Of a stretch of DNA of 64,000 nt, positions 254 to 14,244 are shown piece after piece. Origin of the DNA: Hoeflea ulvae (GTDB taxonomy: Bacteria; Pseudomonadota; Alphaproteobacteria; Rhizobiales; Rhizobiaceae). The position numbers were made by a program, and so were the translations under genes. Within the stretch, counting starts at the first letter, position 1, and each line of letters opens with the position of its first letter. The stretch lies in contig NZ_JAOVZQ010000001.1 of assembly GCF_026619435.1 (NCBI RefSeq), forward strand, positions 3,603,501 to 3,667,500, in the 5' to 3' direction. The notes below the pieces were generated by a model. The model did no database searches and was not told where the DNA came from. It was given only the letters and a program-made list of their open reading frames with translations.

Positions 254-1666
254 TCAGCTGCCCCAGGGTCCGTGGTGTTCGCCCTCGGCGTCGAGCCGGG
301 CAAAACCATGCGCGCCGAAGAAATCGCGCTGCGCCTGGATAAGGTTGGCAGTGCCGCGGGCGCGCCGGTAGGTGTCGAAATAGGCCAGCGCGCTGGCCAG
401 TGCCGGCACCGGCATGCCGTTCATCGCCGATTCGGCCACGATCCGCCGCAGGCTGGCGTCGGTATCCCTGATCATCGCAGAAAACGCCGGTGTCAGCGCG
501 AGATTGGCCACGTCGGGATCATTGGTAAAGGCGGTGGCGATCTCGTCGAGGAAACGCGACCGGATGATGCAGCCGGCGCGCCAGATCCGGGCAATTGTGG
601 CCATCGGCAGGTTCCATTTGAACTCAGCTGACGCCGCGGCCATCACCGCAAAGCCCTGCGCGTAAGCCGCAACCTTGCCGGCCAGCAGCGCCTTTTCGAG
701 ATCCTTGATCACCGCCTGCCCCTCGCGCCGGTCGTGCTGCGCAGGAAGCCCGAACTCGGCCTGCGCCAGGGCGCGCTGCTCCCGCATCGCCGAGAGGCTG
801 CGCGCAGCCACCGCCGCCTCGATCGCCGTTGCCGGAACGCCCATCATCTGGCTTTCGATCACCGACCAGCGGCCGGTGCCCTTCTGGCCCGCGGCATCGA
901 CAATGATGTCGGCGATCGGCCGTCCGGTGTGGGCGTCCTGAACCATCAGCACTTCGGCGGTGATGTCGATCAGATAGGAATCGAGCGGTCCGGTCGACCA
1001 GGCCGAAAACACCGCGGCAATCGTCGGCGCATCCATACCGAGATGATCGCGCATCACGCCATAGACTTCGGCGATCATCTGCATGTCGGCATATTCGATG
1101 CCGTTGTGAATGGTCTTGACGAAATGTCCGGCGCCGTTCTCGCCGAGCCACGCGGCACAGGCTTCGCCCTCGAACTTGGCCGAGATCGCCGTCAGCACCG
1201 GCTCGACCCGCTTCCAGGCGTCCTCGGCGCCGCCGACCATGATTGACGGCCCGTGGCGCGCGCCCTCTTCGCCACCTGACACGCCCATGCCGATAAAGGT
1301 GAGGCCCGAGCCTTCAAGATCGGTGAAGCGGCGCATGGTGTCGCGGAAATTGGCATTGCCGGCGTCAATGATGATGTCGTTGGCTGCCAGCAACGGCTTC
1401 AGCGCCGCAATCTGCGCGTCGACCGGCTCACCGGCCTTGACCATGATGATGACCGGACGCGGTGGCCGGATCGCGGCAACGAAATCTTCCAGCGTGGCGC
1501 AGGCGGTCACCTTGTCGGACAATTCGCCCGCCGAGGCCGCGAACTCGTCCGTCCGCGCCGTGGTGCGGTTGTAGACGGCAACGTGATAGCCATTGTCCGC
1601 AATATTGAGCGCAAGATTGGCGCCCATGACGCCCAGCCCGATAACACCAATTTCCGCTTCAGCCAT
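254..1666 (-). CDS. gnd: 6-phosphogluconate dehydrogenase (decarboxylating)
   Basis: Oxidises and decarboxylates 6-phosphogluconate to ribulose 5-phosphate with NAD(P)+, in the cytosolic oxidative pentose phosphate pathway. The 470-residue length is normal for the family. The N-terminal Rossmann fold has GLGVMG at residues 10-15. The substrate-binding stretch 'GVSGGEEGARHGPSIMVGG' is at about 128-146, and 'HFVKTIHNGIEY' carries the catalytic Lys184. The helical C-terminal domain is complete. The ATG at 1666 is preceded by a good Shine-Dalgarno (GGGGGAGA). It stands alone, transcribed leftward, convergent with the MarR fragment. Rhizobiales often rely on the Entner-Doudoroff route, so gnd mainly serves NADPH and pentose supply (inference). 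Confidence 0.96.
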   Translation of the reverse strand: MAEAEIGVIGLGVMGANLALNIADNGYHVAVYNRTTARTDEFAASAGELSDKVTACATLEDFVAAIRPPRPVIIMVKAGEPVDAQIAALKPLLAANDIIIDAGNANFRDTMRRFTDLEGSGLTFIGMGVSGGEEGARHGPSIMVGGAEDAWKRVEPVLTAISAKFEGEACAAWLGENGAGHFVKTIHNGIEYADMQMIAEVYGVMRDHLGMDAPTIAAVFSAWSTGPLDSYLIDITAEVLMVQDAHTGRPIADIIVDAAGQKGTGRWSVIESQMMGVPATAIEAAVAARSLSAMREQRALAQAEFGLPAQHDRREGQAVIKDLEKALLAGKVAAYAQGFAVMAAASAEFKWNLPMATIARIWRAGCIIRSRFLDEIATAFTNDPDVANLALTPAFSAMIRDTDASLRRIVAESAMNGMPVPALASALAYFDTYRRARGTANLIQAQRDFFGAHGFARLDAEGEHHGPWGS

Positions 1667-1800
1667 TTCCGGTCTCCCCCTACGGCGCTTTCATCAGATC
1701 ACCTTGTGACCGATGCCGGCGCGAGCGGCAAGCCTCCGCGGCGATCAACTGTGGGGATGCGCGCCGATTTTTCCAGGCGCCGGAATGCGAGGAACCGGGT

Positions 1801-1959
1801 TCAGTCCTGCTCGGGCTTGTCGTCACCATCATCGAGAATGCGCCAGGCTGCCCCTTCAAGATCGTCATACTGGCCGGATTTCATCGACCACAGGAATGCC
1901 GCCAGGCCCAGGGCTCCCAGAAGCAGGGCAATCGGAATCAGGAAAATCAGCGTGTTCAT
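1801..1959 (-). CDS. ccoS: cbb3-type oxidase assembly protein CcoS
   Basis: A 52-residue single-span membrane protein that begins 'MNTLIFLIPIALLLGALGL' and is followed by 'FLWSMKSGQYDDLEG'. The W-S-x-x-x-G-Q-Y/F-D-D-L-E-G signature is typical of CcoS/FixS. It is required for maturation of the cbb3 oxidase, where it is thought to help insert cofactors into CcoN. The ATG at 1959 overlaps the ccoI stop as ATGA (1956-1959), so the two are translationally coupled. It is the last gene of ccoGHIS. The charged tail (DDGDDKPEQD) should be cytoplasmic. Confidence 0.93.
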   Translation of the reverse strand: MNTLIFLIPIALLLGALGLAAFLWSMKSGQYDDLEGAAWRILDDGDDKPEQD

Positions 1960-4319
1960 GCGGATGTCCTGAGGCTGCTTTCCGCGCGCGCCTCCCCCGG
2001 CAAGGCCGGCGTGATCCGGCTGACGGCGCCCCGCGCGAAGTGCTCGATGCGGGTCTTGCGCCGCAGCCGCAGCGAATTCAGCACCACGATCACCGAGGAT
2101 GACGACATCGCCAGCGCCGCAATCAGCGGCGTTGCGTGGCCCAGAACCGCGGCCGGAACCGCAATGCAATTGTACAGGATCGCCAGCGCGAAATTCTGCC
2201 GGATCAGGCTGCCCGCCTTGCGCGAGACCTCGATGGCCAGCGGCACAGCCTCGAGCGAATCATGCAGGAACACGAAATCCGCCGCCATCCGCCCGACATC
2301 GGCGGCACTCGCCGGCGCCATCGAGACATGCGCAGCCGACAGCGCCGGCGCATCATTGAGCCCGTCGCCCACCATCAGCGGCTTGCCACCCGCCTCAGCC
2401 AGCGCCTTGAGCCGGTCGACCTTGCCGCGCGGCCGCACGCCGGCGACATAGCTCGCCAGGCCCAGCTCGCCCGCCAGCGCCCTGACCGGCGCCTCCCGGT
2501 CGCCCGAGAGGATTTCGGCGTCGAGCCCCAGTGCTGCCAGCCTTGCCACCGCCTGTATGGCACCGCGCCGCAACTGGTCGGAGAACAGGAACACATCCAT
2601 GAATACGCCGTTTTTCGACAGGATGACCTGGCTGGCGTCGGCGGCCTGGTCGAGACCCTGATTGTGGCCATCGAGCGCAAACATGGCCCGGCCCAGCCGG
2701 TAGACCTCGCCTTCGGGCGAGATCGCCTCGACCCCCTCGCCCGGGGTTTCGATGATGTCGAAATCCGGCATCAGCTCTCCCGCCGTGTCATGGGAGGCCA
2801 GCGCCTGGCTCAGCGGATGCCGCGAGGCGCGTGCGATGCGCGCCGCAATCGCCAGATTTTCCGGCGCCACAGCCGCCGCATTGACCAGCTGCGGCCGCCC
2901 GCGCGTCAGTGTCCCGGTCTTGTCGAAGACCACATGATCGGTCTGCGCCAGCCGCTCCATCGCCGAGCCGTCCTTGACCATGATGCCGTTTTCGAACAGG
3001 CGCCCGGCAGCCACCACCTGCACCACCGGCACCGCCAGCCCAAGCGCGCAGGGACAGGTGATGATCAGCACCGCCACCGCGGTCATCATTGCCATGCGCC
3101 AGTCGCCGGTGGCCATCATCCAGCCGGCGAAGGTGCCAAGGGCCAAAAGGTGCACCACGGGTGCGTAGATGGCGGAGGCCCGATCGGCGATCCGGCGGTA
3201 GCCGGCCCGTCCGCTCTCGGCGGCCTCCATCATCGAGACCATTTCGGCCAGGAACGAGTTGCGCGCGCTCTTCGTCGCCTCCAGCACCAGTGAGCCGGTG
3301 AGGTTGAGCGTGCCGGCCGGCGTCAGCGATCCGGTCTCGACCGGAAGCGGCGCGCTCTCGCCATTGACGACGGCGAAATCCATGTCCGAGCGGCCCGAAA
3401 CCACCCGCCCGTCCACCGGGATGCGGTCGCCCGGCGCAATCGCCAGCCGCATGCCCGGTTCGATCTCGTCGAGCGCCAGGTAGTCCCGGCTGCCGTCATC
3501 CCGGATCACCATCGCGCCGCGCGGCGACAGCCGCACCAGATTGCGCACCGCCGAGCGGGCCTTTTCGCGCATCATGTGGTCGAGCGTCCGGCCCGCCAGC
3601 AGAAAGAACAGCAAGGTCACCGAAGCGTCGAAATAGGCATGTTCGCCATGGGTGATGGTCTCGTAGAGCGACATCGCATAGGCCAGAATCACGCCGAGCG
3701 AGATCGGCACATCCATATTGGCGTGGCCATGGCTGAGCGCGTCCCAGGCAGAGCGGAAGAAGATCCGGCCCGAATAGGCCAGCGCCGGCGCGGCAATCAG
3801 CGCCGAGATCCAGTGAAACAGGTCGCGCGTGGTGTCGTCGGCGCCCGACCAGACCGAGACAGACAGCAGCATCACATTCATCGAGGCAAAGCCCGCAACC
3901 GCCAGCGCCTTGAGCAACTCGCGAAACGCCGGATCGGCGCCCTCTTCGCCGCCGCCGGGCAGATGTGCGGGATAGCCCAGCGCCTTGAATTTTTCTGCCA
4001 GCGCCGTCAGCACGGTCTCGGCATGGCTGCCGCTTATGGGTGCGGCGCTCCCTGCGCCGGCCTTGTTTTCAAACACCACCGACACCCGCCGGGTCGACAG
4101 GTTGACCCGGGCATGATCGACACCGGGTGTCCGGGGAAGTTCGCGTTCGAGAAGTGCGATACAGGCGCCGCAATGCACCCCTGGCACGATCAGGTCGACC
4201 TGGCGCATTCCGTCGCCGAGCGGTCGGCTCGACAGCCAGATTTCCTCTGCCGACGGGCCTTCGGATTTCAGCGCCTCAAGCTCGGCGGCACTTTCGGTGC
4301 CTGCGGCGCAGCAGCTCAC
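1956..4319 (-). CDS. ccoI: cbb3-type copper-transporting P-type ATPase CcoI/FixI
   Basis: A heavy-metal P1B ATPase that delivers copper for the CuB centre of cbb3 oxidase. The chosen start is GTG at 4319, which overlaps the ccoH stop as GTGA and gives 787 residues beginning VSCCAAGTES, the usual Cys-Cys start of FixI. Domains in order: soluble metal-binding domain with HCGAC (Cys50, Cys53), transmembrane helices, the ion-channel motif TCPCALG (about residue 420), the phosphorylation motif DKTGTLT (about 465), and GDGLNDAPAL (about 650). All key residues are present. An in-frame start further upstream at 4412 would lie inside ccoH and lacks family support. Confidence 0.94.
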   Translation of the reverse strand: MSCCAAGTESAAELEALKSEGPSAEEIWLSSRPLGDGMRQVDLIVPGVHCGACIALLERELPRTPGVDHARVNLSTRRVSVVFENKAGAGSAAPISGSHAETVLTALAEKFKALGYPAHLPGGGEEGADPAFRELLKALAVAGFASMNVMLLSVSVWSGADDTTRDLFHWISALIAAPALAYSGRIFFRSAWDALSHGHANMDVPISLGVILAYAMSLYETITHGEHAYFDASVTLLFFLLAGRTLDHMMREKARSAVRNLVRLSPRGAMVIRDDGSRDYLALDEIEPGMRLAIAPGDRIPVDGRVVSGRSDMDFAVVNGESAPLPVETGSLTPAGTLNLTGSLVLEATKSARNSFLAEMVSMMEAAESGRAGYRRIADRASAIYAPVVHLLALGTFAGWMMATGDWRMAMMTAVAVLIITCPCALGLAVPVVQVVAAGRLFENGIMVKDGSAMERLAQTDHVVFDKTGTLTRGRPQLVNAAAVAPENLAIAARIARASRHPLSQALASHDTAGELMPDFDIIETPGEGVEAISPEGEVYRLGRAMFALDGHNQGLDQAADASQVILSKNGVFMDVFLFSDQLRRGAIQAVARLAALGLDAEILSGDREAPVRALAGELGLASYVAGVRPRGKVDRLKALAEAGGKPLMVGDGLNDAPALSAAHVSMAPASAADVGRMAADFVFLHDSLEAVPLAIEVSRKAGSLIRQNFALAILYNCIAVPAAVLGHATPLIAALAMSSSSVIVVLNSLRLRRKTRIEHFARGAVSRITPALPGEARAESSLRTSA

Positions 4320-6479: not shown

Positions 6480-7587
6480 TCACAACCAGCTTTTGCCACG
6501 CACCCGCGCCGGGCGGTTGCCGGCAGGGGTGGCGACCTCGACCATGGCGCCCTCCTCCCAGCAGTCGCGATTGATCATGGAGATTGCCACATTGGTTTCA
6601 AAATCCGGCGACCAGGCAGCCGAGGTGACCTGGCCGACCGGCTCCCCCTGGGCGCTTACCGTCCAGGGCTCGGGGCATGGCGGCACCGCATCGCCGTCGA
6701 TCTCGAGATAGCGGATCTGCTTGAGCGGGCCTTCCCTGGCGACCCGCAACAGCGCGTCACGGCCGACGCAACCGATGGCTGACCTGGTGTCGCAAAACCG
6801 GCCCAGCCCGCATTCATGCGGCGTGTTGGCCCGCGTCATGTCATTGCCGTAAGACAGCATGCCTGCCTCTATCCGCTCGATCAGGTTGGGGCACCCTGCC
6901 CGCACATCGAGATCCCGGCCGGCTTCAAACAGCGCGTCCCACAGCGGTTCACCATGCTGGCCGCCCTCGACATAGATCTCGAAGCCGCCCTGCTTGGAAT
7001 AGCCCGAGCGGGCAACGACCAGATCGACGCCATTGAAGGCAAGGCGCTTGTAGCGGAAAAACCGGATCGAGCGGACTTCGTCGCCAAATACCCGGGCGGC
7101 CAGATCATCGGCGCGCGGGCCACTGGATCGCCAGCGGCGACACATCGGGTTCGATCACATCGACGGCCAGCCGGAAGCCCACCGCCAGCGCCTTGACCCA
7201 CAACAGCAGATCGCTGTCGGCGATCGACACCCAGTAGCGGTCCTCGTCGAGCTTGACGGTGACCGGATCGTTGAGCATGCCGCCGGTCTCGTCGACCATC
7301 GGGGTGTAGAGACATTGCCCGACCGCCATCTCCGAGAGATCCCGCGGTGTCAGCATCTGCACCAGTTCGGCCGCCTGCGGACCGCGGATCTCCACCTGCC
7401 GCTCGCAGGCCACATCCCAGACCTGAACGGCGCTTTTGAGATGGTGATAATCCTCGACCACCGACCTGAACACGGTGGGCAAAAGCATGCGGTTGTAGAC
7501 CGTATAGGCCGACACGCCTGCAGCGGTGACACGGTCCGTGAACGGCGTGCGGCGGGTGCGGCGGGATATCGACAGAAAAGGCGGCAT
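6480..7587 (-). pseudogene. dmdA: DmdA-like (GcvT-family) demethylase with a one-base frameshift
   Basis: Joined across two frames this is about 368 residues, the usual DmdA length. The N-terminal part has 'RRTRRTPFTDRV', 'AYTVYNRMLLPTVF' and 'VWDVACERQV'. The C-terminal part has 'FFRYKRLAF', 'SGYSKQGGFEIYVEG' and 'SYGNDMTRANTPHECGLG'. These are signatures of dimethylsulfoniopropionate (DMSP) demethylase DmdA and its close GcvT relatives, which move a methyl group to tetrahydrofolate. The reading frame breaks at about 7122. There an extra base (A on the plus strand) turns an expected Q-G-P-R-A-D-D into Q-W-P-A-R-R-stop. The start is ATG 7587 with GGAG upstream. Whether it is a true DMSP enzyme or a DmdA-like paralogue cannot be settled here. 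It is either a pseudogene or a sequence error. Confidence 0.8.
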
Positions 7588-7697
7588 TGGCTGTCTCCGG
7601 AGCAAGGGGCGCGTCATGCGCAGGCACCGGCAGACTAGTTGCGGCACATCCGTCAAGGCGCGCCAGATCGCGTCATGGGAGAACTATTTTTTGTCTC

Positions 7698-8858
7698 TCA
7701 ACCCACCCATCCGAGCCGTTCGACAAACCACCAGGCCGCCACGGCGGCGATCGCCAGCGACATCGGCATGGTGATCCGCGTCCGGTACCAGCTCTTGTCG
7801 GAGAACCAGGCGCCGAACAGCGCATAGCAGCCGGCGACAACGGCAAGCTGCCCGGCCTCGACACCGATATTGAAGGCCACCAGCCCACTGACGAAATGCG
7901 CCGGCGACAGGCCGATCTCGGTCAGCACGCCGGCAAAACCGAGCCCGTGCAACAGACCGAAGCCGAACACCACGAAGGGCCGCCAGGGACTGAGCCGGTT
8001 GGTCGCCAGGTTCTCCACAGCGATGAAGACGATCGAGGCGGCAATCAGCGGCTCGACAATGCTGGCAGGCAGCGAGATCACGCCCAGCATCGCCATGGCC
8101 AATGTGACCGAATGTGCGATTGTGAAAGCGGTGATCTGCACCAGCAGCGGCTTGAGCCGCGGTGACAGCAGAAACAGCCCGACCACGAAGAGAATGTGAT
8201 CGAGTCCCTTGGGCACGATATGGGCAAAGCCGATGCCGACATAATCGACAAAGACCTCTCCGGCGCTGCGGCTGAGCCCGCCCTCCACCGGGATCGCTTC
8301 GCTGGGGCCGCCATCTGCAAGATAGGCTGAATAGCTGTATTCACCATCGGCGTCCGGCACCCGGATGACGCTGGGGCCGAAGGCCGGATCGAACGAGAAC
8401 ACCACCGCGCCGGCGCCCGGCGGCAATTGCCCCGCCAGCGTAAGCCGGCTCAGCCGGGCGAAATCGGTATCACCCACCGGAACAAGTTCCACGGCAACAA
8501 TGTCGAGCGGCACCCTGGCGCCATCGGCCAGCAGCGCGACACCGTCGAGAAAGCGGGGTTGAAAGCGCTCGAACTCCGCTGCCAATGCGGCCTCGTCGAG
8601 CAGCCGAAGCGCGTCGTAGCGCTGCGCGTTGGGGCTGTCGTCGGTGTCACCATGCTCCGCGCCGATTTCGGCCAGCGCGGCCTCGAGTATCAGAGACATC
8701 TCGAGCCGCACCGTGCCGTCGCCGGCAAACACCAGATCGGCAATCGCCGGGCGGATTTCATGGGAGCGAACGGTCCCTGCCGCCCAAAGCAGCACGGCCA
8801 CGGCCACAAGCAGGCTGGCAAGCAATTGATTTATCGAGCGCAAAGACAGGGTCATCAT
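7698..8858 (-). CDS. HupE/UreJ-like exported membrane protein
   Basis: About 386 residues from the ATG pair at 8858/8855. A signal peptide ends near 'GTVRS', and the mature chain would begin 'HEIRPAIADLVF'. A periplasmic domain runs to about residue 190. It is followed by a HupE/UreJ_2-type membrane domain with 'HIVPKGLDHILFVVGL', 'FTIAHSVTLAMAML' and 'LLHGLGFAGVLTEIGL', whose conserved His and Asp residues suggest metal binding or transport. Relatives include nickel/cobalt permeases and many uncharacterised proteins; the substrate is unknown. It lies 146 bp downstream of the LodB-like gene on the same strand and may be co-transcribed with it. The C-terminus has a last helix ending VERLGWVG. 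Confidence 0.8.
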   Translation of the reverse strand: MMTLSLRSINQLLASLLVAVAVLLWAAGTVRSHEIRPAIADLVFAGDGTVRLEMSLILEAALAEIGAEHGDTDDSPNAQRYDALRLLDEAALAAEFERFQPRFLDGVALLADGARVPLDIVAVELVPVGDTDFARLSRLTLAGQLPPGAGAVVFSFDPAFGPSVIRVPDADGEYSYSAYLADGGPSEAIPVEGGLSRSAGEVFVDYVGIGFAHIVPKGLDHILFVVGLFLLSPRLKPLLVQITAFTIAHSVTLAMAMLGVISLPASIVEPLIAASIVFIAVENLATNRLSPWRPFVVFGFGLLHGLGFAGVLTEIGLSPAHFVSGLVAFNIGVEAGQLAVVAGCYALFGAWFSDKSWYRTRITMPMSLAIAAVAAWWFVERLGWVG

Positions 8859-9004
8859 CAGATCCACGGCACAAGGACAGGACGGGGCGGTCACACAACC
8901 ACAGGGCGGTGTCCGGCTTACTTGGACCGGTGATGCCGTTTCGTCCAGTCTCGGCAGGAGAATTTGCAGCAATTTCCTCTGGCAGCGGTCGCAAGGGCAG
9001 GATT

Positions 9005-10099
9005 TCAGTCAACCAACGCAACCGGTGCCCGCGATGCTCCCAGCCGGCGCTGCCAGAACGGGGCGTCCGGCCAGCGCCGCTCCATGCCGTAATAGGTTGC
9101 ATGATGGCCGGCATAGGCCTGCCAGATGCGACCGGTCCGCGCCGCATGCGCCGGCATCGCGGTTTCATCACCGTCCAGCAGCGCAAGCGCCGACTCGCCG
9201 GCTTCCATGCCGGTCACCAGCGCGTTGAAAAGGCCCTGCGAGGACAAGGGATCCAGCGCAATGGCACTGTCGCCGGCGGCAAGCCAGCCCTGCCCGGCGG
9301 AGCTTGCAGCGGCGCTGTTGGCGGCACACACCTGCGGTTTCGAGACCGACCCATCATCCAGCTCACCCAGCGCCTGCGCCAGGCCGGCCGTGCGCCGGGC
9401 CGCAGCAATCGGCCCCTCCCGCATCAACGCGCGGATCACCGGCTGGTCGCTGTCTCCGTGAAAGCCGATGACGCGCCAGCCATCAGGCAGCAACGCCGTG
9501 TACCACCAGCCTTCGGGTGTCGACTGAGTATAGGTTGCCGGGTCCGCCTCACCGCGCTGGCGCAGCCGCTGATAGACGCAGGCGAGCCGGTCCATCACCA
9601 TGCGGCGCTGGCCGAAGGGGCGCAGCAATTGCGAGCGCCGGCCGCCGGCATCGATGATCTGGCGGGCCATGATCATGTCGCCGCCCTCGAGCCGGACGGT
9701 CCAGCCCTGCGCACCACGATACAGGCCCGACACACTGACCGGCGCCATCAGGATGGCGCCGCGCGCCACCGCGCCGGCACGCAGATCCGCCTCGAACCGC
9801 GCCCGGTCGATGCGCCAGCCGGCTCCGTCGGGATCGCGGAAAGCATCGAGTTCAACGGCCTCGTCCGACCCCCAGCGGCTGACCTTGAGCGGTGCGGCGC
9901 CATGACCGGCCGCCTCGAAGCGCTGCCAGGCGCCCAGCGTCGTCAGCACCCTCCGCGCGGCACCCGGCAGGGTTTCGCCGATTCGCCAGACCGGCGGCGC
10001 AACCCGGTCAAGCAGCACCACGGAGGCGCGCGGTGCAAGCGTGGCCGCGGCGGCGGCGCCGGCGGTTCCCGCCCCGATAATGGCGACGTCGACCCTCAC
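9005..10099 (-). CDS. LodB-like FAD-dependent maturation oxidoreductase
   Basis: A 364-residue flavoprotein with an N-terminal dinucleotide-binding GAGTAG motif (residues 9-14), an internal 'GWWYTALLPDG' and the FAD-pyrophosphate motif 'GDSAIALDPLSSQGL'. This is the pattern of the tryptophan-halogenase/geranylgeranyl-reductase-like group. LodB and GoxB, the flavoproteins needed to form the tryptophylquinone cofactor in LodA and GoxA, belong to this group. The GTG start at 10099 overlaps the stop of the LodA-like gene (GTGA, 10096-10099), so the two are translationally coupled. That pairing is the main reason for the LodB call; sequence alone would give 'FAD-dependent oxidoreductase'. It is predicted to be cytosolic. 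Confidence 0.8.
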   Translation of the reverse strand: MRVDVAIIGAGTAGAAAAATLAPRASVVLLDRVAPPVWRIGETLPGAARRVLTTLGAWQRFEAAGHGAAPLKVSRWGSDEAVELDAFRDPDGAGWRIDRARFEADLRAGAVARGAILMAPVSVSGLYRGAQGWTVRLEGGDMIMARQIIDAGGRRSQLLRPFGQRRMVMDRLACVYQRLRQRGEADPATYTQSTPEGWWYTALLPDGWRVIGFHGDSDQPVIRALMREGPIAAARRTAGLAQALGELDDGSVSKPQVCAANSAAASSAGQGWLAAGDSAIALDPLSSQGLFNALVTGMEAGESALALLDGDETAMPAHAARTGRIWQAYAGHHATYYGMERRWPDAPFWQRRLGASRAPVALVD

Positions 10100-13047
10100 C
10101 GCTGGGTCGGCAGGCCGCGGGGAAAGCGGTTGACGAGATCAATTTCGCTCAGATCGACTTCCGTGGCCGAACGCACACCGCGCCGGCGCACGCCTTCGAG
10201 CGAATGGGTCAGGGGGCCCGGCGATGTCGCCTCCGCCCCGAGATTTTCGCGTTCCCGGTAATGCTCCTCTTCCGGGGTGATCAGCCGGGCGTAATCCTCG
10301 ACTTCGATCTTGTCGGGAAATTCCGCGTCGCCGGGCCCATCGCGGACTTCGACCACACCGAGGAAATCGAAATGCTGGATCATGTTGTTGATCTGGTGGG
10401 TGTAGCCGTCCGCGCCCAGCGGTTCGATCCAGGCTTCCCGGTTGGCGAATGCCTTGCGCCGTTCCGACATTGGCCGGTTGGTGTCCATGACGATGTCGTA
10501 ATTTTCCCGTGTCAGCACCTCATTGGGCACCCGCGCCGGCCAGAAACTCGGCACATAGGGATCGTAGCTCGGCGTGTAGCCGGAGCGGCAGCTGCTGGTG
10601 TCGGTCTGCCATGGCACCGCCATCCAGCGGGTGATGCCGCCCGGCAACTGCCCGAACAGCGGGCCGTTGGGGATGGTCACCGAATCGGTGGTCAGCACCT
10701 CGCTCTGCTGCGGCTCGATCCAGCCTTTCGGCGCGTGCAGGAAGCGGAACGGCGCCATGTACATCGAGGACGCACGCACCGGCCATGTCATTTCGCAGCC
10801 CGGATGGAATGCATCGGCGAGGCAGAATTCCAGCGCCGCGCGGGTCAGCATCTCGCCCTGTTCGGCCGGCGGCAGCTCGTCAACCTCGCGCACCGGCAAC
10901 CGGTCGGGGTCATAGTCGGGCTCGAAATTGCCCTCGGACCATTTCTTCAGCATCGCCATCTGGCAATCGCTCAGCACCGCGTTCTGCCGGGGCGTGTCCG
11001 CCGGCGGCACATTCATCGCGTCACCGTAGAGCCATGGCCACGGCACCGGAGAATAACTGTCGCGGGCAAAATTTCGGAAATTGTTGTAGATCACCCGGCG
11101 CTGCTCGCGAAAAGCCGGGCTGGTGCTGCCCAGCCCGGCAAGCGCCTCCCTGCTGGTGAGATCGAAGGCCCCCTCCCAGCCAAAACCGCCGGCAAAGCCG
11201 GCATTGGTCCATTGCAGTCCCGCCATCCGTTCGAAGATCGGCAGGATTTCGGCGGTGAATGAGGGGCGCGTCGGTGCCGCCAGCATCTTCGACTTGATCG
11301 CGATGTCGCGCATCAGGTCCCACATGGTGCGCACTGACTTGCGTTGCGGCCCGTAATTGGGCGGCGCGACGACCACCCAGGCCGGAACCACCTGCAGGCG
11401 CTGGCCGTCGAGAAACACCTCCGCGGTCACCGGCCCGTCGGAGACATCGTCATACCAGCCTTCATTGTTGGCGAATGTGATGGCGGCGCTGTCATCATAG
11501 CTTTGCGAGCGCCCCATGCCGCCAAGCACGGTCAGCCGCGCGGCCGCATCGGTGCTGATCTCTCCGAGATAGACCGGGATATCCATGAATTTGCCCTCGA
11601 ACCGCTCCGGCCCGGCCTCCGCACCCTGAAGGTGACGCGCTTCGGGCGTGATCGCCAGCCGGGTCCTGTCGGCCACGCCCGGATTGCGCAATGTCGTCGG
11701 CGGGGCATAATTGGCCTCCGGAATGTCGAGCGCGAGCTGGAAGCCGTACCAGGCCGCCTTCTGGTTGGCGAGTTGCACCGACCAGCGGATTTCCGCATCC
11801 CGGTCCTCGCCGGTCAGTTCGCGGATGATGTCGCCGCGGGCATTGCAGCCATAGATGCGGAAGCGCGCCGCCTGGCGTTTGAGTTTCTTGTCCGCATCGC
11901 GATAGCTGCCCGGCGGCAGCGGCGCCGGATCGATCACTTCGGGACCGTAGAAATATTCCTCGCTCGAGCCCACCCGGGCCACGCCGATGGACGGATAGAT
12001 CACCGCCTGGACGATGCAGTCGTCCGTCTCGTCATGCATCGGCTCGACCGGACGCGGCTCGACTGGGTCACCGATCAGCTGCCCATTGGCGCTCTGGCGC
12101 AAGGCCGCGCCGGCGGCATAGACGCTGCGGCGGACCACGGCGATGGAGGACTCCTCGCTCGGACGGTTTTCCGGCGGCACCCGCCAGATGTTGAACGACA
12201 GGTTCTGGCCATAGTCGGACTGTCCGCGCGCATCGACGCGCTGCCGCGGGATCACCAGGGTTGCGACCGGCCGGAACTCACTTTCCGATTCAGGCCATTC
12301 GACCATCGCCTTGTCGAGCGGCATGGTGTCGGGATTGGTGCGCAGCTGGACCGACAGCACGAAGCGGTAGTCCCGCTCGGACAGCCGGTTGACCATATCG
12401 GTCTTGAGGTAATCGGTGGCATCGTCCGGCACATTTTCGGGTGCTGTTTCCGGCTCCAGCCGGTACTTGATGATCTCGTCACCGAGATGAAACGGCAGGA
12501 TCGCCCAATAGGTGGTGGTCAGCACCGAGCCCTTGGGCGCGGTCATCGCATTGAGGATGTCGTTGGTTTCCCTGTGGCGGGCGAGATAGGCATTGTAGTT
12601 TCTCTGCACCACGCCGGCATAGGTGAACTCGACCATCTCCTTCGCGTCATTGACGAAGAACCGCGATGCCGCCTGCATGATCAGATCGGCGGTTTCGCCC
12701 TGTTCGCCCAGCGCGTTTTCACCCGGCACGCCGAACAGTTTCAGCCCGATGCCGAGCGTGCTGCCAAGGTCGGGAGAGGTCGGCCCGGTGTCGCTGGAAA
12801 ACCGCATCCAGGCCTTGAGCCGCTGATGGGCAAAAATGCCGACGCGCATGTGCTCGGGCATGTCGTCATGCCGTTCGAGATAGCCATGGGCCACACCATG
12901 CAGCTTGCGGAAGACGGCACGTTGCGCCGGCGGCGGATCGACACGGGTGCGCTTGGCCTGGCCCATTTCGACAAACATCTCGATCAGCCGTTCGGCGGAT
13001 GTGGCCTCGGTCTCAAAACATTCCGGGACTGGTGGTTCCTTTTCCAT
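10096..13047 (-). CDS. Catalase-like/LodA-like CTQ oxidase fusion protein
   Basis: A 983-residue two-domain protein. Residues about 40-325 resemble the y4iL/SrpA-like catalase superfamily. 'RKLHGVAHG' offers an R-x-x-H distal His50, 'DLIMQAASRFFVNDAKEMVEF' follows, and R306-x-x-x-Y310 (RRSVY) fits the proximal haem-tyrosine motif of catalases. Residues about 345-905 are LodA/GoxA-like: 'VIYPSIGVARVG' opens the domain, 'HPGCEMTW' gives Cys751 and 'MAVPWQTDT' gives Trp813. This is the pair expected to crosslink into cysteine tryptophylquinone (62 apart; 65 apart in LodA). LodA-type enzymes oxidise amino-acid amines and release ammonia and H2O2. The haem domain may remove or use that peroxide (inference). 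The ATG at 13047 has GAGGAG upstream. No signal peptide is seen, as expected for LodA relatives. The substrate cannot be predicted. Confidence 0.88.
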   Translation of the reverse strand: MEKEPPVPECFETEATSAERLIEMFVEMGQAKRTRVDPPPAQRAVFRKLHGVAHGYLERHDDMPEHMRVGIFAHQRLKAWMRFSSDTGPTSPDLGSTLGIGLKLFGVPGENALGEQGETADLIMQAASRFFVNDAKEMVEFTYAGVVQRNYNAYLARHRETNDILNAMTAPKGSVLTTTYWAILPFHLGDEIIKYRLEPETAPENVPDDATDYLKTDMVNRLSERDYRFVLSVQLRTNPDTMPLDKAMVEWPESESEFRPVATLVIPRQRVDARGQSDYGQNLSFNIWRVPPENRPSEESSIAVVRRSVYAAGAALRQSANGQLIGDPVEPRPVEPMHDETDDCIVQAVIYPSIGVARVGSSEEYFYGPEVIDPAPLPPGSYRDADKKLKRQAARFRIYGCNARGDIIRELTGEDRDAEIRWSVQLANQKAAWYGFQLALDIPEANYAPPTTLRNPGVADRTRLAITPEARHLQGAEAGPERFEGKFMDIPVYLGEISTDAAARLTVLGGMGRSQSYDDSAAITFANNEGWYDDVSDGPVTAEVFLDGQRLQVVPAWVVVAPPNYGPQRKSVRTMWDLMRDIAIKSKMLAAPTRPSFTAEILPIFERMAGLQWTNAGFAGGFGWEGAFDLTSREALAGLGSTSPAFREQRRVIYNNFRNFARDSYSPVPWPWLYGDAMNVPPADTPRQNAVLSDCQMAMLKKWSEGNFEPDYDPDRLPVREVDELPPAEQGEMLTRAALEFCLADAFHPGCEMTWPVRASSMYMAPFRFLHAPKGWIEPQQSEVLTTDSVTIPNGPLFGQLPGGITRWMAVPWQTDTSSCRSGYTPSYDPYVPSFWPARVPNEVLTRENYDIVMDTNRPMSERRKAFANREAWIEPLGADGYTHQINNMIQHFDFLGVVEVRDGPGDAEFPDKIEVEDYARLITPEEEHYRERENLGAEATSPGPLTHSLEGVRRRGVRSATEVDLSEIDLVNRFPRGLPTQR

Positions 13048-13419
13048 GCCGATCTCCTCAATTCAAAGGCAATATTGCGGTCCGCACGCGTCGAATACCA
13101 GCAGGCTAGCCGAAGTTGCTTCCGCAGGGAACAGCCCGAAACATAAAGACAGCACAAATCGACAGATTTATGCTCGGAATGACGCCGCTTTATTCGTCCA
13201 AATAAAACTTCATACGTAATCTGTATTTACGAATTTCAGCTTTTAGAACATTTGACTTTTCACACTCCTATTTGTTCTGGATACATCGCCGACCCCGCCG
13301 GCAAACCGCGTGCGAGGTCTGGTCGCCGCGCCCCGAAACCGCCCGGTTCTGCAGTGTGGATAATCGATTGATCGAGGCGGCGAACGGATGCATCTTGGCC
13401 GCCCATCTGGAGAGCGATC
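13048..13419. other. Divergent intergenic region, no gene seen
   Basis: This 372-bp gap separates the leftward LodA-like gene from the rightward DUF4198 gene. The middle (about 13140-13270) is clearly AT-rich compared with its surroundings, as expected for back-to-back promoters. I could not assign a convincing -35/-10 pair or FNR box. No open frame with family features is present. Confidence 0.5.
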
Positions 13420-14244
13420 ATGACACGACGGACATCCCTCAAACGGGCAACCGCCTTCTTCGGACTGGCGCTGACTTTCGCCCAGGTTTCCGCCGTGTCG
13501 GGACATGAATTCTGGATCGAGCCGGAGGCCTTTGCGGTGGCCCGCGATAGGGAGATCCGCGCCGACATCCGCGTCGGACAGGATTTCAAGGGCGATATCC
13601 TTCCCTATATTCCCTCGCGCTTTACCGCCTTCAAGCGCTACGACCGCCTTGGCGAGAGCGATGTTTCAGGCACCACCGGCGACCTGCCGGCGCTGGCCCT
13701 GACACCGCGCAGCGAAGGGCTCACCCTGTTCACCTATGTCTCGGTTGCCGAGCGGATCCGCTTTCAGGGCTGGGACAAATTCGCCTCCTATCTCGAGCTT
13801 GAAGGCCTTGACGCCATTCCCGCCCGCCATGACGCCCGCGGGCTTCCCCGCGACGACATCCGCGAGCTCTACACGCGCTGCGCCAAGACGCTTGTGACCG
13901 TGGGCGATGCAACAGGCGACCAGGACCGCGCCACCGGCATGCGGCTGGAGCTTGTCGCGGGCGAAAACCCGCAGGCGCTGGCAGCCGGATCGGAAATGAG
14001 CTTCACCCTGCTGTGGGAAGGCGCACCGCTTGAAGACACGCAGGTGGCATTGTTCCAGCGCGGCGAAGACGGCGCCCTCGCCGCCCGGACGCTTGCCCGC
14101 ACGGACGAGACCGGACAGGCCAGCTTCACCCTCCCCGCTGGAGGCACCTATATGGCCGCCAGCGTGCACATGATCGAGGCGCCGGTAGAGCGCAACGCCG
14201 ACTGGCAGAGTTTCTGGGCTTCGCTGACCTTTGCTGTGGACTAG
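13420..14244 (+). CDS. DUF4198 domain exported protein
   Basis: 274 residues with a twin-arginine-like start (MTRRTSLKR), a hydrophobic core, and then 'SGHEFWIEPEAF', the hallmark opening of DUF4198 proteins. The rest is beta-rich, with a C-terminal Ig-like segment ('LARTDETGQASFTLPAGGTYM'). The family is related to the NikM-type periplasmic parts of nickel/cobalt uptake systems, and metal binding is often suspected. If cleavage falls after V-S-G, the mature protein starts with His-Glu. The start codon follows GGAG. It is transcribed away from the LodA/LodB/HupE-like genes. The precise function is unknown. Confidence 0.8.
   Translation: MTRRTSLKRATAFFGLALTFAQVSAVSGHEFWIEPEAFAVARDREIRADIRVGQDFKGDILPYIPSRFTAFKRYDRLGESDVSGTTGDLPALALTPRSEGLTLFTYVSVAERIRFQGWDKFASYLELEGLDAIPARHDARGLPRDDIRELYTRCAKTLVTVGDATGDQDRATGMRLELVAGENPQALAAGSEMSFTLLWEGAPLEDTQVALFQRGEDGALAARTLARTDETGQASFTLPAGGTYMAASVHMIEAPVERNADWQSFWASLTFAVD

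Follow-up and report, generated by a model that had tools for sequence, protein, structure and literature searches.

What would a domain with a catalase fold do on an oxidase whose own family forms hydrogen peroxide (H2O2)? The question is raised by a gene in a 64,000-nucleotide stretch of the Hoeflea ulvae genome (NCBI RefSeq assembly GCF_026619435.1, contig NZ_JAOVZQ010000001.1, positions 3,603,501 to 3,667,500; hereafter the window). This gene encodes a protein in which an N-terminal catalase-fold domain precedes an oxidase of the LodA/GoxA type, whose cofactor is cysteine tryptophylquinone (CTQ). An earlier note on this DNA, made by a model from the sequence alone, had proposed such a fusion at 10096..13047, and both folds were indeed found there, in a gene that lies on the minus strand. 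On balance, we favor reading the protein as a CTQ oxidase with a haem domain that binds its haem through Tyr310, lacks the distal His of catalases, does not dismutate peroxide and still makes use of its distal pocket.

The fusion itself was already known. In 2015, 21 proteins of 963-1072 residues with a pfam00199 domain that also matches cd08152 were listed, all in LodA group III (PMC4417212, Table 3), and the window protein has the same architecture, with its y4iL-like N-terminal domain, and the same size range. Several organisms and strains occur both in that study and among the loci analyzed here, such as Massilia timonae CCUG 45783, Oceanospirillum beijerinckii DSM 7166 and Tenacibaculum ovolyticum DSM 18103. 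Other LodA fusions listed there carry pfam14518 (five) or pfam13519 (two), and group III had no characterized member as of 2015 (PMC4417212, section 11). In the sections of that study available to us, the distal residue, its invariance and a split form are not discussed, and the window protein itself escapes PF00199. The open-access literature, subscription papers lying mostly outside the search, contained no functional study of the fusion and no recognized report of a His-to-Phe exchange. Thus the fusion is undescribed, as the earlier note had it, in its function but not in its architecture. What is new here is the reinterpretation of the haem domain, namely that Phe46 has taken the place of the catalytic His throughout the fused family despite the retention of the haem-anchoring Arg residues and Tyr310.

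The pocket of the catalase-fold domain

The catalase fold of the N-terminal part was recognized by family profiles (hhalign and a PDB profile search). The earlier note had suggested a search with catalase profiles, and the outcome depends on the query: the family profiles match, but the N-terminal part alone gave no catalase match in single-sequence searches of Pfam and PDB, and the window protein did not match PF00199 up to E 10. Among 44 related proteins, 12 matched PF00199 at E 0.01.

The window motif R43-A-V-F46-R-K48 falls on the columns where unfused relatives have R-x-x-H-A-K, and residue 46 of the structural model corresponds to residue 75 of human catalase and residue 54 of the Proteus mirabilis enzyme (2cag), according to VIA-align ranges counted without gaps. 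We take His75 and His54 to be the distal residues of these two catalases, and for His54 this is supported by the title of PDB entry 3hb6, 'Inactive mutant H54F of Proteus mirabilis catalase'. The mutant has the same distal His-to-Phe exchange in a catalase fold as the fused family, although it is a laboratory variant of a true catalase. His50, which the earlier note had named as the distal residue, lies four residues further, whereas its Arg306-x-x-x-Tyr310 haem-tyrosine motif stands.

These assignments hold across the family. From 467 related loci we analyzed a genome sample of 80, belonging to Pseudomonadota (44), Bacteroidota (27), Myxococcota (3), Acidobacteriota (3), Actinomycetota (2) and Cyanobacteriota (1); one locus (L079) starts inside the gene, which leaves 79 rows for the N-terminal positions. 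Phe46, His50, Arg43, Arg82, Ser84, Gln125 and Phe131 are each present in all 79 readable loci, and Arg306, Tyr310 and Arg317 in all 80, while the column of the distal Asn holds Asn in 77 and Ala in two. Phe46 was also found in L164 and in four further fused genes from genomes drawn from the class. A database sample of 120 of 489 related proteins was examined as well, and in the 115 fused proteins of at least 940 residues, taken from 217 database proteins, Phe46, His50, Arg306 and Tyr310 are invariant. In a looser set of 190 database rows, one is gapped at residue 46 and 185 of the other 189 have Phe; the four exceptions are three rows that are apparently cut or out of frame (P0135, P0154, P0211) and one unfused protein with His (P0216). 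Compared with the copy in Hoeflea BAL378, the haem domain has a ratio of nonsynonymous to synonymous substitution rates of 0.138, and residues 346-925 one of 0.126.

Catalases have an essential distal His, three propionate-binding Arg residues and a catalytic Asn and Ser, according to the part of PMC9687031 available to us. Held against a monofunctional haem catalase, the window protein has the fold, the proximal Tyr310 with Arg306 and the propionate residues Arg43, Arg82 and Arg317, but it has Phe46 for the distal His and Ala126 for the distal Asn and stays below the PF00199 cut-off. A structural precedent is the coral allene oxide synthase-lipoxygenase (3dy5, 1u5u), in which a minimal catalase-fold haem domain is likewise N-terminal to the enzyme that supplies its peroxide. 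The anchors of the two match by spacing, R43-F46 and Y310-R317 being spaced as R64-H67 and Y353-R360 of the coral allene oxide synthase (cAOS). The coral protein differs in that its partner is a lipoxygenase and the distal His67 is kept.

The obvious explanation would have the haem domain act as a catalase or peroxidase and clear the H2O2 of the CTQ half, and it must be judged against this pocket. A catalase fold joined to a peroxide-forming oxidase family (PMC4417212) and the retention of some catalytic-site residues other than the His would suit such a role, and at least four fused members are named 'Catalase' in UniRef (P0006, P0020, P0067, P0070). Against it stand the Phe at the distal-His position of every readable fused locus and full-length protein, the title of the H54F structure, and cAOS, which keeps His67, Asn137 and Tyr353 and yet cannot scavenge H2O2 (PMC5617202, in the part available to us). 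With the haem anchors kept, Phe46 in the distal-His position and the H54F catalase titled inactive, the domain probably holds a haem without breaking down peroxide. We consider a working catalase, and with it peroxide removal as put forward in the earlier note, very unlikely.

Unfused relatives and the history of the fusion

The exchange is characteristic of the fused family. In 37 unfused relatives the distal-His position holds His in 32, Asn in four and Phe in one, and the column of His50 has His in 32 of the 37; these rows come from 30 loci for the stronger matches of one search, nine of another and L034, the five reference rows, the LodA-fused L131 and L132, and L155 (the same place as L034) being excluded. 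The distal His of R-x-x-H-A-K is found both in the unfused y4iL-like proteins and in the 33-kDa catalase-related protein of 3e4w/3e4y, in contrast to the Phe of the fused family. The four Asn proteins (L135, L136, L142, L042; motif GNTKT) form a separate unfused catalase-like branch, a clade with support 100/100, in which the catalase His has been replaced naturally a second time.

The sole unfused protein with Phe (L133, in genome G428), a catalase-like protein of 638 residues, is encoded last in a same-strand run of three genes, after those for a LodA-like protein of 812 residues and a LodB-like protein. In this split operon the LodA-like protein (L165, 3518-5953) has about 160 additional N-terminal residues, and the catalase-like protein (1429-3342) has about 290 additional C-terminal residues with no Pfam match.

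In a tree of the haem domain, thinned by identity to 27 of the 79 fused loci plus the window, the fused and split Phe rows form one clade (support 100/100), and two changes at residue 46 are needed over the whole tree. In the oxidase tree, thinned in the same way to 25 fused rows, a 100/99 clade unites these rows with the split row and five unfused rows, three of which are nested among the fused ones. The simplest account would be one joining followed by losses, with repeated joining as the alternative. No catalase-like open reading frame (ORF) was found within the 14-16 kb around the unfused clade members (L161, L162, L197-L199). The haem domain is an accessory, since these close relatives without it keep the CTQ residues and lodB.

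The quinone site and its gene neighborhood

The CTQ-oxidase fold spans residues ~346-920 of the window protein. The search of LodA/GoxA profiles that the earlier note had also suggested gave clear results, LodA_N scoring 264 bits and LodA_C 132.5 bits (Pfam cut-offs 26.3 and 25). The more specific NCBIfam equivalogs remain under their cut-offs, with 392 of 750 bits for GoxA and 147 of 600 bits for LodA, and these scores are so far below that the substrate cannot be inferred. The glycine oxidase GoxA of P. luteoviolacea (PlGoxA, 6byw) and the L-lysine 6-oxidase LodA (2ymw) are without a haem domain, unlike the window protein.

Residues 405-517 of LodA align with residues 692-821 of the window protein, so that Cys516 falls on Cys820, provided that the alignment runs to its end without a gap. 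The cofactor pair of LodA is C516/W581 (PMC4417212, in the part available to us), and the expected pair of the window protein is Cys820/Trp836. Asp816, Cys820 and Trp836 are kept in all 22 LodA-like ORFs that reach the CTQ site (L206 ends ahead of it). The corresponding pair of PlGoxA we take to be Cys682/Trp697. The CTQ pair of the earlier note, Cys751 and Trp813, is rejected even though Trp813 is invariant; among LodA-like ORFs, Cys at position 751 alternates with Val, Ile or Ala, and position 748 is variable too. Two tests by which that note would have been judged, a common pocket for His50 and Tyr310 and the adjacency of Cys751 and Trp813, therefore rest on the wrong residues. Cys751 (in FHPGCE; 10795-10797) is present in all 80 fused loci and the nearest unfused relatives, whereas other LodA-like proteins have Val, Ile or Ala there; it is a residue specific to this group and close to the active site.

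Directly downstream of the fusion gene, with a 4-base overlap, lies a lodB-like gene, whose product scores 221 bits for GoxB and 158 bits for LodB (NCBIfam), both below the cut-off of 400. A direct search found a same-strand lodB-like ORF downstream in 75 of the 80 loci, its open frame starting within 300 bases of the oxidase end in 59 and overlapping further in 16; at the remaining five the contig runs out no more than 7 bases from the oxidase frame. In a second set of loci the gene is present in 22 of 23, the last being cut by a contig end. In ORF clustering of the neighbors the lodB family was present at 60 of the 80 loci, and the next families reached 10.

This neighborhood bears on the idea that the haem domain serves maturation, helping to oxidize Trp836 for CTQ as MauG does for tryptophan tryptophylquinone (PMC7876137, in the part available to us). 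The fusion of the domain to a CTQ precursor, or in one genome its place beside one, would be compatible with such a role. The role seems very unlikely to us, given that a LodB-like gene is present wherever the examined locus extends far enough to hold one and that close relatives keep Cys820/Trp836 and lodB without the haem domain.

Features of the fusion gene and the adjoining lodB-like gene (positions in the window)
Feature	Position	Strand	Basis
Fused catalase-fold / LodA-GoxA-like protein, 983 residues	10096..13047	minus (13047->10096)	ORF, Pfam, fold
GAGGAG, presumably the ribosome-binding site, before the ATG at 13047	13054..13059	minus	sequence
Catalase-fold domain, residues 35-331	12055..12945	minus	hhalign, PDB profile search, VIA-align
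Arg43, haem-propionate Arg of R-x-x-H (cAOS R64)	12919..12921	minus	79/79 loci; PMC5617202 (part available)
Phe46, catalase distal-His position	12910..12912	minus	79/79 loci; 115/115 full-length fused proteins; alignments
His50, second conserved His, not distal	12898..12900	minus	alignments
Arg82, haem-propionate Arg (cAOS R102)	12802..12804	minus	79/79 loci
Ala126, distal-Asn position	12670..12672	minus	Asn in 77/79 fused loci, Ala in 2
Arg306, proximal-side Arg of R-x-x-x-Y	12130..12132	minus	80/80 loci
Tyr310, expected proximal haem ligand (cAOS Y353)	12118..12120	minus	80/80 loci; 115/115 proteins
Arg317, haem-propionate Arg (cAOS R360)	12097..12099	minus	80/80 loci
LodA_N domain, residues 351-560	11368..11997	minus	PF17990
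LodA_C domain, residues 684-836	10540..10998	minus	PF18417
His748, aligns with active-site His583 of PlGoxA (H583C mutant named in structure match)	10804..10806	minus	alignment
Asp816, aligns with Asp678 of PlGoxA (D678 mutants named in structure matches)	10600..10602	minus	alignment
Cys820, expected CTQ cysteine (LodA Cys516)	10588..10590	minus	alignment
Trp836, expected CTQ tryptophan (LodA Trp581; aligns with PlGoxA Trp697)	10540..10542	minus	alignment
LodB/GoxB-like flavoprotein, predicted CTQ maturase	9005..10099	minus	NCBIfam

Beyond the module, a HupE/UreJ_2 gene (7698-8972, minus) directly follows the lodB-like gene on the same strand, a family that does not recur among the commonest neighbors of the 80 loci. 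A DUF4198 gene (13420-14244, plus) is divergent from the fusion gene, and DNA 79% identical to this region is also found upstream of the Hoeflea BAL378 copy. A glycine-cleavage-T-like (GCV_T) gene (6480-7656, minus) consists of two overlapping frames, 7656-7105 and 7145-6480, that match consecutive parts of the profile; its frame is broken, whether in the organism itself or through an error in sequencing.

The window genome has one LodA and one PF00199 catalase match, in a 754-residue frame elsewhere. The fused protein occurs in two of 18 genomes of the genus. In a draw of 299 genomes from the phylum LodA_N was found in nine, and in a draw of 385 from the class in 13 (15 loci); two of the nine and five of the 15 loci are fused, the window's own gene being counted in both draws. 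A PF12902 ferritin-like gene adjoins an unfused LodA-like gene in two genomes (G001, contig C102, and G006, contig C1; L172, L175, L211, L212), as was reported for a neighbor of this type in a fungus (PMC4417212, in the part available to us), and it may encode another metal redox partner for LodA-like oxidases.

What the haem domain may do

The two-gene module would yield a CTQ-dependent amine or amino-acid oxidase of the group III LodA-like type. Its LodB-like flavoprotein would convert the Cys820-Trp836 pair into the quinone, which in turn would oxidize a primary amine or amino acid and release H2O2. The N-terminal domain has most likely retained a haem with Tyr310 as ligand, but with Phe46 in place of the essential distal His it would by itself neither form Compound I nor dismutate H2O2. 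Its distal pocket (Ser84, Gln125, usually Asn126, and Phe131) probably still binds a ligand or a second substrate; these residues are conserved no less strictly than the haem anchors, and for this reason a substrate- or ligand-binding haem site is favored over a relic.

If the haem does carry out a peroxide-driven reaction, the substrate would have to supply the missing acid/base. In the active form of the favored reading the domain would be a self-fed peroxygenase or product-modifying haem enzyme, in which peroxide made by the neighboring half oxidizes the amine-derived product or some other molecule, with the substrate as acid/base. Candidate chemistries are a substrate-assisted oxygenation or a ferric-peroxo attack on the aldehyde or imine from the CTQ half. 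This form is tentative, and cAOS speaks against it in that it retains and uses its distal His67 (PMC5617202, in the part available to us).

A passive role is also conceivable, in which the domain holds its haem as a scaffold, for oligomerization or for sensing a ligand, and performs no chemistry. The loss of one catalytic residue with the rest kept would fit this, as would the dispensability of the domain in some close relatives; by way of argument, the presence of Ser84, Gln125 and Phe131 in all 79 loci would be unexpected for a mere scaffold. Such a role is possible, if doubtful. Among single functions, a haem reaction with the bound substrate as acid/base is the most likely, and a ligand-sensing or scaffold role is almost as likely.

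Other pairings of an oxidase with a haem protein were considered. RebD/VioB combine an amino-acid oxidase with a haem protein that uses the imine and H2O2. When the ORFs of 17 PF12902 loci, none of them a known RebD or VioB, were scanned with the profile of the haem domain, there was no match up to E 10. We set aside an electron relay between CTQ and haem of the kind seen in quinohaemoprotein amine dehydrogenase, given the very low potential of a Tyr-ligated haem.

Several points weigh against a CTQ oxidase with a distal pocket still in use. The window protein itself has Ala126 where 77 of 79 loci have Asn, which could mean that its pocket is less active than those of its kin. Tyr310 is present in 177 of 183 database rows, and the six exceptions look misaligned or out of frame, an error that is suspected but unproven. 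The split operon is known from one lineage, a search for further examples by the C-terminal portion of the G428 protein giving one near-identical protein, and the full-length model is of low confidence at the CTQ region (predicted local distance difference test scores of 44-51 around residues 815-833). Finally, with 80 of the 467 loci examined, fused genes with a distal His may exist among the rest.

More speculatively still, the His may have been exchanged for Phe once, when the domain joined the CTQ oxidase, giving rise to a new haem enzyme that uses the peroxide made by its neighbor only together with a bound substrate. For a catalase-like domain on an H2O2-making LodA oxidase the obvious guess is peroxide removal, but the conserved loss of the His, across six phyla, says otherwise. 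The annotation 'catalase' hereby becomes a testable puzzle, namely what role a haem plays in a catalase fold that is unable to split peroxide, and the residue assignments provide targets for mutation at both sites.

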